IMG/VR virus record: IMGVR_UViG_3300044641_002801 | Coordinates: 1 to 22,230 of that record | Direction: 5' to 3' (one strand) | Origin: a virus | Length of the DNA: 22,230 nt | Part shown: positions 1 to 20,348 of the stretch, one piece after another | How positions within the stretch are numbered: the stretch's first letter is position 1 | Layout: each line of letters opens with the position of its first letter | Translations under genes and position numbers: made by a program | Notes under the pieces: model-generated | Seen by the model: only the letters and a program-made list of their open reading frames with translations | Database searches by the model: none | Told to the model about the DNA's origin: nothing

Positions 1-164
1 TGTACCCCTTGCCTTATCAACCAACGGCGTAGGTGTTCTTTTTCGCATTTTGTCCCTAGCCCATATAGCTTGGAAATCTCGCTTAAAGATTTGCCGTTAT
101 TGTATTCGCTTATTGTCTGTTCTTTCATCTGATGCCAGAAGTACTTTGTTATCTTATTGTCCAT
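1..164 (-). CDS. Helix-turn-helix protein, probable homing endonuclease N-terminus (partial)
   Basis: This reverse-strand gene starts at an ATG (164-162) and runs off the left edge of the window, leaving 54 complete codons with no stop. An AGGAG at 175-171 sits six bases before the ATG, an excellent ribosome binding site. The protein begins MDNKITKYFWHQMKEQ. Residues about 17-53 have the look of a resolvase-type helix-turn-helix: a YNNGKSLSEISKLYG stretch, then a second basic helix with HLRRWLIRQG. The gene lies between the missing N-terminal part and the visible C-terminal part of an intein in the terminase gene. Free-standing homing endonucleases are known at that spot in phage split inteins, and many carry DNA-binding modules like this. 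The nuclease domain is outside the window, so the endonuclease role is inferred from position. I prefer this reading to the forward one over the same bases because its composition is protein-like and it has a ribosome binding site. Confidence 0.68.
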   Translation of the reverse strand, partial: MDNKITKYFWHQMKEQTISEYNNGKSLSEISKLYGLGTKCEKEHLRRWLIRQGV

Positions 165-175
165 CGCGTTCTCCT

Positions 176-286
176 ATTAAGGTTCAAGTTACAAGCATTA
201 TAGCACAAGCGGCTCCAGTTGTCTACTACGATTTTACTGCACCCACCCATAGCAACTATGTAGCGGAAGGTGTTGTGCATCATAAT
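176..286 (+). other. Intein C-terminal splicing region in the TerL Walker A motif
   Basis: Just before the terminase P-loop SGKT, the reading frame shows the C-terminal intein blocks. KVQVTS (about 179-196) is a typical opening beta strand. VYYDFTAPTHSNYVAEG (about 221-271) matches block F, and VVHHN (272-286) matches block G with the penultimate His and terminal Asn. The next residue is Ser (287-289), the required +1 nucleophile. The mature protein would join the upstream Gly-rich half of the P-loop to SGKT. The P-loops of phage ATPases are a recurring intein insertion site. The splicing mode, in cis or in trans, cannot be decided here because the N-intein lies outside the window. Confidence 0.88.
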
Positions 287-1456
287 AGTGGAAAAACTTT
301 TATTCTCTGCTATGCCCTGTTTGTACGCGCACTGAAGGCACCGAATAGCAGACACCTTATACTGCGTCTCCGTTTCAATCACGCAAAACAGTCTTTAGCT
401 CTGGATACCATTCCTAAGATGCTTCGTCTGTGTTTCCCGAATGTAGACATCAAACTCAGTAAGGTAGACTGGTATTACACACTGCCTAATGGGGCTGAGG
501 TATGGATTGGTGGCTTAGATGATGGCGACCGAATTGAGAAGATTCTGGGACGTGAGTTCAATACTATCTACTTTAATGAAGCCAGCCAGTTAGACTGGAA
601 ATCTATTGGTACAGTTAAAACTCGTTTAGCCCTTAAACATCCGGCATTAGTAAATAAACTGTACTTTGACTGCAATCCCCCTAACAAACGCCATTGGCTG
701 TACAAAATCTGGATTGAGGGTAAGAATCCTGATAATGAGAACGTACCATTAGTAGATAAAGACACATACGGCTATCTGCGGATGAATCCCAGTGATAATA
801 CAGATAACCTAGCTGATAACTACATACGCAGTATATTGGATGGATTAAGTGAACGTGACCGTAAACGGTTCAGAGATGGTGAATTTACTGATGATGCGGA
901 AGGTGCATTGTTCAAATGGGAAGATTTATGCAAGTATAGAGTAGCAAAAGCACCTGATCTACTCCGTGTTGTTATAGGTATTGACCCTGCAGTGACTAGT
1001 AATGATGGTTCTAACAATACAGGTATAGTAGCGGTAGGCGTTGCTAAGCTAGGTAAAGAAGACCACTATTATGTATTAGGCGACTATACCATGTCAGGCA
1101 CGCCGTTTATGTGGGCTAAAGCAGCCATAGATGCCTATGATGCAACAGAAGCGGACAAGATAATAGCTGAAATCAACCAAGGTGGTGATCTAGTAGAGCA
1201 TAACTTACGTACCCTGCGGCCACTAATACCGTATGAGTCTGTGCGTGCTACCCGTGGTAAGGCTATACGCGCTGAACCTGTAGCTACCGTATCTGAAAAA
1301 GGTAGATTGCACATGGTAGGTGAGTGGCCTGAACTGGAAAATGAGCTAACAAGTTGGGCACCTGCATCCGGTGAACCTTCTCCCGACAGACTAGATGCTA
1401 TGGTATGGGCTGTACGCGCATGTATGGGTGCTAATAAGCGCATTGGGACATGGTGA
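176..1456 (+). CDS. terL: Terminase large subunit, C-terminal part, preceded by intein C-terminus (5' partial)
   Basis: TerL is the ATP-driven DNA packaging motor and the nuclease that cuts phage DNA at the portal. The visible part starts in an intein ending in HHN at 286. The terminase then resumes with SGKTF, the second half of the Walker A P-loop. A Walker B-like IYFNEAS follows at about 566-586, then a DCNPPNKRHW coupling motif at about 668-697. The C-terminal RNase H-like nuclease shows its acidic residues in GIDPAVTSNDG (about 980-1012), AEINQGGDLVE (about 1166-1198) and DRLDAMVWA (about 1387-1413). The N-terminal extein and N-intein are left of the window. The forward frame is open to position 2, but the part left of about 176 is probably a shadow of the reverse gene. 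No ATG, GTG or TTG lies in frame between 149 and 274, so the translation start of this part is unresolved. The start given marks the edge of the intein-like sequence, not a start codon. Confidence 0.93.
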   Translation: MKVQVTSIIAQAAPVVYYDFTAPTHSNYVAEGVVHHNSGKTFILCYALFVRALKAPNSRHLILRLRFNHAKQSLALDTIPKMLRLCFPNVDIKLSKVDWYYTLPNGAEVWIGGLDDGDRIEKILGREFNTIYFNEASQLDWKSIGTVKTRLALKHPALVNKLYFDCNPPNKRHWLYKIWIEGKNPDNENVPLVDKDTYGYLRMNPSDNTDNLADNYIRSILDGLSERDRKRFRDGEFTDDAEGALFKWEDLCKYRVAKAPDLLRVVIGIDPAVTSNDGSNNTGIVAVGVAKLGKEDHYYVLGDYTMSGTPFMWAKAAIDAYDATEADKIIAEINQGGDLVEHNLRTLRPLIPYESVRATRGKAIRAEPVATVSEKGRLHMVGEWPELENELTSWAPASGEPSPDRLDAMVWAVRACMGANKRIGTW

Positions 1457-16995: not shown

Positions 16996-19413
16996 ATGAA
17001 ATACTTAATATCTACATTTATACTGCTAGTTAATGCTGCATTTGCAGTTCCAGCAATTCCGACGAACGCAGTTACCGCAGAAACTGTAACTGTACTGTAT
17101 AACACGAACAGAGTTGCCTCACTGGGGCCAAGTAACGCCGTTACTCTCATAAACAGTATGATTAGGACTAATGCTACAGTCACTGGTATTAGTAACGCCG
17201 TTGTGGTACTGCAAAGTAACACCAACAACTGGAACACGGCTTATGGTTGGGGTAATCACTTTGGGTTATACAGGTTAATTGACTGGGTTCCCGGTTGGAA
17301 TGACGTAACTAATAAGCCGTCTACATTCGCGCCTGCACCACATGATTACACGTCTATAACTAATCCACCTTGGGCTACTACTAACTACACCGACGCCGTG
17401 GCCGCTGGCAAGGTCGGCACGAACGATCCCGCCTATCTCGCCGCCTGCACCGGGTCAGTCTACTACGCCGGGTTGACGACGTTCACTTCCAACCGCGTCG
17501 TGTGGATCGGGACGAACGCATTTGCAGCAGCAGCACAAACGAACGTCACCCATAACTCACTACTCGGCATCGAAGGCGCGGGGACGCTGCACGTGTCGGT
17601 TGGTCAGACGAACCTGATTAAGACCGCATGGCAGAACCCGTCCAGCGCAACAAACTGGACGTGGACTAGCGATGGCACACAGATCACGCTGACAGGCTAC
17701 ACCGGCCCGGATGATGTAGTTATGCCAAAAGAGTTGGATGGTTTGCCGGTAACAAGATCAGAGGTTCAATGGCCGTTTCCGTCTACAATTACAATTACAA
17801 GTATTACTGGGTCGATTTTGTTTGAAGGTATAGTTGAGTGGAACTCATCCGCAATCCACGATATGCCTGCACTCAAATCGGTGTCCTTTACCTCGATCAC
17901 AAACATAGGCCAGAATGCATTTTCCTATTGTCCGGCACTAACCGCTGTCTACTTCGGGCAGAACGCTATGCCTGAAGCAGAAGGAGTATATTTCGACACC
18001 CCCAACGTCACGAACTACGTCACCAGCAGCACCGCAACCGGATGGGGCGCTACGTGGTGCGGTCGGCCCGTGGTGCGGCTGCCCTTGTACACCGACGAGT
18101 TGCGGGTAAGAGGGACGAACGTCACCGACATGATCACGGCCGCGACGAACCCGATCCCCAGTTGGATCACGGCCGCGACGAACCCGATCCCCAGTTGGAT
18201 CACGTCCGCGACGAACGCCACGTGGATAGCCACCACGAATGCCATTCAGATCGCGTCCAATGGTTGCTACGTCTTAATGACCAACGCACTCACCGGGGCG
18301 ACGAACTCGCTGTGGATAGCGTTCACGAATTACAAAGGCTTCGTCAGTACAACCGACCCAGCCTATCTCGCGGCCTGCACCGGGTCCGTCTACTTTGCCG
18401 GACTGACGACCTATGTTTCCAACCGCGTGACGTACATCGGGACGAACGCGTTTACGGGCGGCAGCAGTGGGACGCAGACGAACGTCGCCCATAACTCACT
18501 GCTGGCCATCGAAGGCGCGGGGACGCTGCACGTTTCGGCGGCAGAGACGAACCGGATCGAAAAATCTTTGCAGTTCGGAACTTCGGAGGGAAAAGTACTG
18601 CTGTCTATTGGGGTTGCTGGGTACGACCAAGGTATAGGTTCAGTAAACGATTTGGTGGACCCAAGCCAAAACCCTGCGGCTGGGTATCTTTTCAGGTATG
18701 TCGACGGATTGTCCACAAAATATACACTGTATGATTCTGGAAACTTCGCTTCAGGGACGCACTATCTATCTCCAACGGGAAACGTCGCATCAGTGAAAAT
18801 CAACGGCACCAACCTGACGACGCTGCTCGACGGCAAGGTTGCGACAAACGACACGCGCGTCGTCAACGCCCTGACCAACTTCAACGACGCAATCCACGGA
18901 ACACGCGGCGGTCTTAACCTTCACGCGCTCGCAGATGCAAACGGCGCGGGGTTCTACAGCGCGGATCACTACAAGGCCGTCGAGAGCATGAAAGGCCGGA
19001 CGAACGCCTTTGAGATGGCCGTGGCGCACACGAATCGCAGTGACAACCCGCACGCCGTAACCCCGGCGCAGATCGGCGCGGTATCAAACACCCCGGCAGG
19101 CATCGCGGCGGCGGGTGGCATCGTTACGAACAGCATCCCCGGCCCCGGCTGCACAGACCTTGGCGCGACTCCAACAGTGACGATCACCGGCTTGACCGTA
19201 TCGCAACGCGCCGCGCCGACTGGCGTTTACACGGTGAGCGTCGCACAGGCGGCTAGTCGGTACACCTACGCGCTGGAGGTCGTATCAACGAACCCTTGCA
19301 CGCTCGCAGCCGGGCTTAATCTGCAAGGCTCATGGACGATCACCGGGACAAACATCCTCGCCATAGTGCCATGCACCGGCACGCTCTGGCGCGTGTACGG
19401 GAGGGGGCTGTAA
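16996..19413 (+). CDS. Mosaic tail fibre with signal peptide and BspA-like leucine-rich segment
   Basis: The 805-residue protein begins with a signal-peptide-like MKYLISTFILLVNAAFA followed by VPAIP. Next comes a coiled Asn and Thr-rich region, then the common phage fibre motif WNTAYGWGNHFGLY at about residues 75-88. A 65-residue module opening DPAYLAACTGSV and ending HNSLLGIEGAGTLHV (about 144-208) is repeated at about 454-521. Between the copies, residues about 216-360 resemble BspA-type leucine-rich repeats: ITLTGYTGPDDVVMP, ELDGLPVTR, AFSYCPALTAVYFG and TGWGATWCGRPVV. Next is an 11-residue repeat. The rest is fibre-like, with NPHAVTPAQIGAV near residue 687. The likely role is host receptor binding. 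G+C is well above the head genes. The signal peptide and mosaic build suggest acquired parts. Confidence 0.82.
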   Translation: MKYLISTFILLVNAAFAVPAIPTNAVTAETVTVLYNTNRVASLGPSNAVTLINSMIRTNATVTGISNAVVVLQSNTNNWNTAYGWGNHFGLYRLIDWVPGWNDVTNKPSTFAPAPHDYTSITNPPWATTNYTDAVAAGKVGTNDPAYLAACTGSVYYAGLTTFTSNRVVWIGTNAFAAAAQTNVTHNSLLGIEGAGTLHVSVGQTNLIKTAWQNPSSATNWTWTSDGTQITLTGYTGPDDVVMPKELDGLPVTRSEVQWPFPSTITITSITGSILFEGIVEWNSSAIHDMPALKSVSFTSITNIGQNAFSYCPALTAVYFGQNAMPEAEGVYFDTPNVTNYVTSSTATGWGATWCGRPVVRLPLYTDELRVRGTNVTDMITAATNPIPSWITAATNPIPSWITSATNATWIATTNAIQIASNGCYVLMTNALTGATNSLWIAFTNYKGFVSTTDPAYLAACTGSVYFAGLTTYVSNRVTYIGTNAFTGGSSGTQTNVAHNSLLAIEGAGTLHVSAAETNRIEKSLQFGTSEGKVLLSIGVAGYDQGIGSVNDLVDPSQNPAAGYLFRYVDGLSTKYTLYDSGNFASGTHYLSPTGNVASVKINGTNLTTLLDGKVATNDTRVVNALTNFNDAIHGTRGGLNLHALADANGAGFYSADHYKAVESMKGRTNAFEMAVAHTNRSDNPHAVTPAQIGAVSNTPAGIAAAGGIVTNSIPGPGCTDLGATPTVTITGLTVSQRAAPTGVYTVSVAQAASRYTYALEVVSTNPCTLAAGLNLQGSWTITGTNILAIVPCTGTLWRVYGRGL
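17425..17619 (+). repeat. Fibre module, copy A
   Basis: This 195-base stretch codes for 65 residues starting DPAYLAACTGSVYYAG and ending QTNLI. A second copy at 18355-18558 is about three codons longer and clearly related along its length. The HNSLLGIEGAGTLHV part is a variant of a fibre stalk motif common in phages. Confidence 0.88.
18132..18197 (+). repeat. Tandem 33-base repeat in the fibre
   Basis: Two identical 33-base units (18132-18164 and 18165-18197) are followed by a diverging third beginning at 18198. Each encodes the 11 residues ITAATNPIPSW. Perfect identity suggests recent duplication or slippage. The repeat may change fibre length. Confidence 0.9.
18355..18558 (+). repeat. Fibre module, copy B
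   Basis: A 204-base relative of the 17425-17619 module, with DPAYLAACTGSVYFAG, IGTNAF and HNSLLAIEGAGTLHV conserved. The main difference is a three-residue insertion in the Gly and Ser-rich middle. Confidence 0.88.
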
Positions 19414-20348
19414 TGCGTAGGGCCGTTTTAACAACCGCGCTATGGGCCGTTTGCGGGGCAGCGTTGGCGTTCGACGCATCGCCGTTGTTGCAGTGGATCA
19501 CGGCGGTTACAGGCGTCTCCGCAACGGGCGGCAACATATCCTATTACTCCACAAACGGCATCAACTTCCGCGTCCACATATTCACGAACAGCGGCACGTT
19601 CACGGTCACGGCGGGCGGCAGCGTTGACGCTCTGATTGTTGCTGGCGGTGGCGGGGGTGGTACTTATGCTGGCGGTGGGGGTGGAGCGGGTGGCTATGTT
19701 CAGAGTAATAGCGTCGCCATTACAACAGGAGTTTATGCGGTATCAGTTGGTCAAGGTGGTCAAGGTGGTGCTGCGGGCGCCACTGGAAATACGTGCGGAG
19801 GGTATTCTGGTAGCAACTCAACTTTTGCCAGTCTCTCTGCTACTGGTGGTGGCGGCGGTGGTAGTTTTAGGCAGTCTGATAACCAGACACAACCTGCGCA
19901 GGCTGGAGGTTCTGGTGGCGGTGGTCCTGGGTATGTATTTGGTACTTCAACTGGCGCTTCTGGTATCAATGGGCAAGGGTACAAAGGCGGAGACGGAAAA
20001 ACCGATGGAACATATCCCGGTGGTGGCGGTGGTGGCGCATTTTCTGTCGGCTTAGATGGTGTTATCGCCGTAGGTGGAGGAAATGGTGGTGGTGGCAAAA
20101 CTAACAGTTTATGCGGTATCACGTCGGTTTATTCTGGCGGCGGGGGAGGCGGCACAGGAGCGGCAGGAACGGCAGGCTTAGGTGGGTCGGGTGGTGGTGG
20201 CAATGGTTCGGCATCTTTGTCGAAAGCATCCGACGGGATCGGAAATACAGGCGGCGGTGGTGGCGGTGGTGGCGGGTATGCAGGCACCCCTGGAGACGGT
20301 GGCGGTAATGGCGGCTCTGGCATCGTGATTATAAGGTATGTTCAATAA
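19413..20348 (+). CDS. Glycine-rich tail tip adhesin with signal peptide
   Basis: Starting at the ATG at 19413 gives 311 residues. That ATG overlaps the fibre stop as TAATG and has a purine-rich GGGAGGGGG site upstream. An upstream ATG in the same frame at 19332 would lie inside the fibre gene and is less likely. The protein opens with MRRAVLTTALWAVCGAALA, a clear Sec-type signal peptide. A short beta region (ISYYSTNGINFRVHIFTNSG) follows. Residues about 75-300 contain many Gly runs of four or more, such as GGGGGGTYAGGGGGAGGY. The end, NGGSGIVIIRYVQ, is the characteristic closing strand of Gly-rich phage fibre domains. Gly runs of this kind form a polyglycine type II sandwich in the gp38 adhesin of phage S16. 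Receptor binding at the fibre tip is the likely role. Confidence 0.8.
   Translation: MRRAVLTTALWAVCGAALAFDASPLLQWITAVTGVSATGGNISYYSTNGINFRVHIFTNSGTFTVTAGGSVDALIVAGGGGGGTYAGGGGGAGGYVQSNSVAITTGVYAVSVGQGGQGGAAGATGNTCGGYSGSNSTFASLSATGGGGGGSFRQSDNQTQPAQAGGSGGGGPGYVFGTSTGASGINGQGYKGGDGKTDGTYPGGGGGGAFSVGLDGVIAVGGGNGGGGKTNSLCGITSVYSGGGGGGTGAAGTAGLGGSGGGGNGSASLSKASDGIGNTGGGGGGGGGYAGTPGDGGGNGGSGIVIIRYVQ

Follow-up and report, generated by a model that had tools for sequence, protein, structure and literature searches.

The left end of one viral contig raised the question of how an intein and an endonuclease gene come to share the same DNA on opposite strands. The original prediction had offered two layouts, a split intein with a free-standing endonuclease gene or a continuous, cis-spliced intein with the endonuclease encoded antisense inside it, and had called the latter unusual. 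The window analysed here is a whole IMG/VR virus record (22,230 bases), whose first base falls within the intein, and its forward frame at positions 2–1456 runs from the C-terminal intein part through the TerL P-loop (SGKTF) to the remaining TerL. The intein portion is open on the plus strand from 2 to 286 with no stops, comprising a passenger linker (~2–165) and the C-terminal splicing part (~185–286), which ends in VVHHN. In a profile search the C-intein matched the profile of its relatives at 185–304 (E 3e-13), and Pfam Intein_splicing gave a weak match (E 0.025). The terminus HHN|SGKTF places the downstream splice junction at 286/287 on the plus strand, and comparison with the intein-less relative L003 shows that this is also the insertion site, N|S in the TerL P-loop (GGSR|SGKT), L003 reading ...GGGAGCAGA|AGTGGAAAAACC and the window ...CATCATAAT|AGTGGAAAAACT. 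L003, an intein-less phage colinear with the window over 6 kb (91.3% DNA identity), fixes the insertion site to the base, while L002 (99.3% identity) likewise starts inside the intein. The TerL C-extein (287–1456, plus strand) holds by Pfam the remainder of the ATPase domain and an RNase H-like nuclease domain, and Terminase_3, Terminase_6N and Terminase_6C were all above cutoffs in the window TerL. Much further along the window, a long ORF at 16996–19413 carries short tandem peptide repeats (ITAATNPIPSW / ITSATNATW) and is followed by a glycine-rich ORF at 19332–20348.

On the minus strand, an ATG at 164–162 lies six bases from an AGGAG Shine-Dalgarno site (175–171), bearing out the gene start read from the sequence at the outset; similar sites were present in many relatives, some having no clear Shine-Dalgarno. 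The contig end cuts this ORF and, because the window begins inside the intein, just the first 54 codons are visible (3–164), corresponding to the HTH-like part of the endonuclease gene. The helix-turn-helix that had been assigned to it was seen in the window as a sub-threshold Pfam HTH_28 match (E 0.086), consistent with the full-length relatives, and against the HNH profile the 54-codon ORF scored 3.8 bits (E 0.0019, as a single comparison). Searching with the 54 residues found no relatives in viral contigs and nothing significant in phages, and an exact 20-mer from the left end of the window was present in no other viral contig. The antisense start is 122 nt from the intein end, the Shine-Dalgarno-bearing starts of relatives being mostly at 113–149 nt, and the gene shares its phase (phase 1) with every one of the 60 relatives. 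Phase, start position, Shine-Dalgarno site, C-intein homology and the weak HTH match together suggest that the window belongs to the family described below, and its HNH domain would be expected to the left, past the contig end, where the relatives have theirs.

As had been noted from the sequence, the C-intein frame has no ATG, GTG or TTG at 149–274, the next such codon being GTG at 275, and the TTG codons in the forward frame at 50, 113 and 146 all lie within the antisense overlap. This absence favours a fractured TerL, in which the halves of a split intein would be joined in trans, the endonuclease gene would stand free between them and translation of the C-half would start from a noncanonical codon, for instance the ATT at 176. 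Public annotation of relatives agrees with such a layout, since the locus of Pseudoalteromonas phage PHS3 is annotated as separate genes and RefSeq lists the TerL of E. coli MEI003 as a pseudogene lacking its N-terminus, beside an HNH gene. The forward frame did prove open across the antisense gene to the window edge, and the frame would be free of stops by chance with a probability of 0.02 if synonymous codons are drawn uniformly, or 0.28 if its own codons are permuted. Taken alone, the open frame of the window is therefore weak evidence and not decisive, and the case for a cis intein is carried by the relatives.

Relatives were collected by an HNH profile search combined with home-made N- and C-intein block profiles, requiring the HNH on the opposite strand between the blocks. 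The search yielded 49 loci, a count that is not a survey, the profiles having been derived from the first loci found; adding 11 named loci gave 60, which include a few near-duplicates and form 41 lineages at <70% protein identity. Their hosts were metagenomic phages, Pectobacterium/Dickeya phages (n=8), Pseudoalteromonas phage PHS3, the chromosome of Enterobacter cloacae (DSM 26481) and a single E. coli prophage (MEI003). The cultured-phage examples were reached through the HNH search, and the HNH frames of phages Koroua and Amona were intact. Scanning genome contigs with the C-intein alignment gave no confirmed locus, while scanning them with the L049 TerL led to enterobacterial prophages; no cultured phage matched the L016 intein protein, and no plasmid matched the intein protein from the E. 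coli locus. Exteins tested by Pfam were terminases wherever a family matched, and five loci with P-loop-like insertion sites (L044, L047, L050, L051 and L052) gave no terminase match by Pfam. In viral contigs, intein-bearing TerL relatives had Cys as the first intein residue, HHN|SGKT at its end and a single frame of ~300 residues, whereas the intein-less relatives (L003–L006) read G(S/A)R|SGKTF. The antisense HTH+HNH gene was on the opposite strand in phase 1 at 60/60 loci, and at every one of them its ORF stopped within the intein. A tree of the HNH proteins did not tell one origin from several, and its deep branches were open. Pectobacterium phage records showed a single 'hypothetical protein' with no HNH annotated. 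Two further features were observed at these loci. A second intein of the same TerL, with the HNH on the sense strand as in the canonical layout, adjoins the antisense-type intein at L018:4022-4867, L021:7357-8277 and L027:7240-8190, and in E. coli MEI003 (L132:3034-5439) the C-part of TerL has an in-frame tandem duplication, in which VVVNSSNPPVKDRVNSMNAMFCNANGERR is directly preceded by a near-identical copy.

The N- and C-intein blocks lay in one ORF at 49/49 loci, though detection did not require a shared ORF, and one open frame was also found at all 11 named loci, so that at none of these relatives did the halves occupy separate ORFs. We then calculated the stops expected if the antisense protein is kept and synonymous codons are redrawn, either uniformly or by permuting the gene's own codons. 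In 41 representatives (<70% identity, 7,387 codons), the intein frame contained 0 stops, compared with 260 (uniform) or 250 (permuted) expected. As controls, we used 44 HNH stretches, mostly free-standing, for which no intein flanks had been detected on the opposite strand; these had 123 stops in the same frame, compared with 111 (uniform) or 131 (permuted) expected. The absence of stops in the inteins, against roughly the expected number in the controls, indicates that the open frame is kept by selection and is no by-product of HNH sequence. A fractured gene would have no need of such stop avoidance, which, together with the shared ORF, makes a split intein very unlikely; no support was obtained for a start at ATT 176, and the layout initially called unusual is the one found throughout the relatives. 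On this comparative sequence evidence, we consider it highly probable that the locus is a contiguous cis-splicing intein in the TerL P-loop that carries an antisense homing endonuclease gene.

Codon-position patterns were also compared between the two strands. In the HNH region, the antisense third positions (equal to sense second positions) were the most variable, and identity in the antisense reading exceeded that in the sense reading in three groups (0.60 vs 0.25, 0.88 vs 0.68 and 0.97 vs 0.93), while in N-Hint, C-Hint and C-extein the sense third positions were generally the most variable. These patterns indicate that the strand under protein-level selection switches at the linker. In the L024–L033 group and in L116, L132, L134 and L136, the antisense HNH frame continues across the N-terminal splicing block, and its tail there looks conserved (e.g. 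YLLGTxHHLxKAGI...LYRKYA). Since third positions vary less in this stretch than they do in other parts, constraint may act on it from both strands, and in the E. coli/Enterobacter, Pectobacterium and L024–L033 branches the overlap with the N-splicing block may be functional on both.

Spurious antisense ORFs are numerous in phage genomes, and the antisense frame might thus be a chance ORF or an artefact of metagenome assembly. For the family this was refuted by the profile-level HNH homology, the constant phase, the stop avoidance and the finding of the layout in E. coli MEI003, Enterobacter cloacae, PHS3, and Ymer and its kin, which are complete genomes or cultured phages, and overall we regard it as extremely improbable.

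The two products of the locus were then assigned to families and folds. PF14890 (Intein_splicing) was above cutoff in both sense inteins tested (n=2), and C1, H65, H304, H305 and N306 were invariant in 22 alignment rows, so the relatives carry the residues of an intein. The AlphaFold model of the sense intein, predicted from the alignment, had a Hint fold at residues 1–90 and ~262–306 (pLDDT 94–98) resembling the Ssp DnaB and Mtu RecA mini-inteins, with a disordered linker between the two parts (pLDDT ~40). Among the nuclease domains suggested at the outset, HNH was found in the relatives and Vsr-like and GIY-YIG were not: six antisense proteins matched HNH_3 (PF13392) with 26.4–39.4 bits, above the curated cutoff of 24.8, and H111, R112, H131 and N143 were invariant. 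The AlphaFold model of the antisense protein (pLDDT 84) had as its best Foldseek match the homing endonuclease I-HmuI (E 0.017, probability 1.00). I-HmuI is borne by a group I intron, whereas five loci examined here gave no Rfam match at the gathering threshold, and a group I or group II intron was rejected. An endonuclease in the intein's own frame and polypeptide was likewise not what was found, the HNH being on the opposite strand in 60/60 loci.

In some phages HNH proteins act together with terminases, and the HNH described here sits in TerL wherever the host gene is identifiable. The antisense product could then be a packaging cofactor, comparable to those HNH proteins whose genes neighbour terminase genes, with the intein as mere shelter. 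We consider this improbable, given that the HNH goes with the intein, being contained entirely within it and absent along with it from close relatives, and that the HTH+HNH arrangement and the top fold match indicate homing enzymes such as I-HmuI. The distribution of the intein also points to a homing element: close relatives have intein-less alleles at the same site, and among E. coli genomes matching a TerL query the intein was present in 1/787. Within the E. coli/Enterobacter group, and likewise within the Pectobacterium group, third-position differences were fewer in the intein than in the extein (for example, 0.265 for the HNH core against 0.536 for the extein), a lower divergence as from recent spread, with constraint by the overlap as a possible alternative. 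Inteins often lose their endonuclease activity, and a search for a sigma-70-like promoter of the antisense gene at the E. coli locus found 0, compared with 2.7 in shuffles, as might be the case if homing were dead, splicing alone remained and the antisense frame were a decaying relic. A relic is, however, scarcely compatible with an antisense frame conserved at the protein level in the groups tested, with HNH residues that are invariant or near-invariant and with the reduced third-position differences, and we think it highly improbable.

The antisense arrangement resembles large inteins with an in-frame endonuclease in its Hint blocks with C1, the block-B histidine and HN|S, in having nuclease information between the N- and C-blocks, in its insertion at a conserved motif and in the existence of intein-less alleles. 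It differs from them in that the nuclease has a gene of its own on the antisense strand and forms no domain of the intein polypeptide, and in that the sense linker is predicted to be disordered and evolves freely except for stop avoidance. In the fractured phage genes that Dassa et al. (2009, cited in PMC10448857) reportedly described, the order is said to be N-intein, endonuclease gene, C-intein; here, in contrast, the host gene is one frame with no stop between the halves. Mycobacteriophage TerL inteins, some of which have been shown to be active in splicing and as nucleases (PMC5050341), are similarly inserted in the TerL ATPase domain, and a word search turned up no antisense or opposite-strand endonuclease in that paper. 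Within the literature searched, the closest published case is the ShiLan domain, a hidden HNH in mycobacteriophage methylases (PMC11855218), whose HNH is homologous to the antisense HNHs (44% over 79 aa) and which also is a mobile insertion whose HNH gene overlaps the open frame of its host gene. The ShiLan HNH shares the strand of the host gene but not its frame, lacks a splicing domain and has no ribosome-binding site that could be detected (PMC11855218), whereas the HNH described here is antisense, inside a splicing intein and often preceded by a Shine-Dalgarno site; a ShiLan-type insertion was consequently rejected. Another hidden antisense HNH layout, this one with no splicing domain, is that of L074:3695-4300 and L100:3659-4414, where phase 0 HNH genes lie inside giant open frames (2611 and 2190 aa) with SLT/ddrB-ParB/helicase and Eco57I-like domains and no intein profile match. 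We found no antisense endonuclease within an intein in the literature searched, which excluded Dassa 2009 and a study of actinobacteriophage inteins of 'non-canonical architecture' (10.1101/2025.01.02.630785), and we do not claim priority.

We propose that the endonuclease gene is wholly nested in the intein, antisense over the long linker that joins the N- and C-splicing blocks, which is the usual location of the endonuclease in inteins. Translation of the sense strand would produce the N-extein, N-Hint, a disordered passenger linker, C-Hint and the C-extein, after which the Hint halves would fold, the intein would be excised and TerL restored. Antisense translation from its own Shine-Dalgarno site would produce the HTH+HNH nuclease, which probably cuts the P-loop site of intein-less TerL genes and would thereby allow the entire intein to be copied in. 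The loci likely represent a widespread and diverse class of mobile inteins, judging from the comparisons above, in which splicing and homing are split by strand, the antisense endonuclease having its own start and stop and the sense linker being a tolerated passenger. The family is apparently large and overlooked, and annotation would be corrected accordingly where such TerL genes have been called pseudogenes (RefSeq), hypothetical proteins or separate genes (phage depositors).

If this reading is true, an intein would have a third way to carry a homing endonuclease, antisense and fully nested, in addition to in frame or in a broken gene, and splicing and nuclease expression could be regulated separately. 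The locus also provides a long antisense overlap in a conserved phage gene, with selection measurable on both strands. Our results suggest that the Hint fold is able to bear a long, evolving linker, and suggest a route to split inteins, since it would take just one stop codon in the linker to break the gene in two. The cultured phages and the E. coli prophage make the system testable now.
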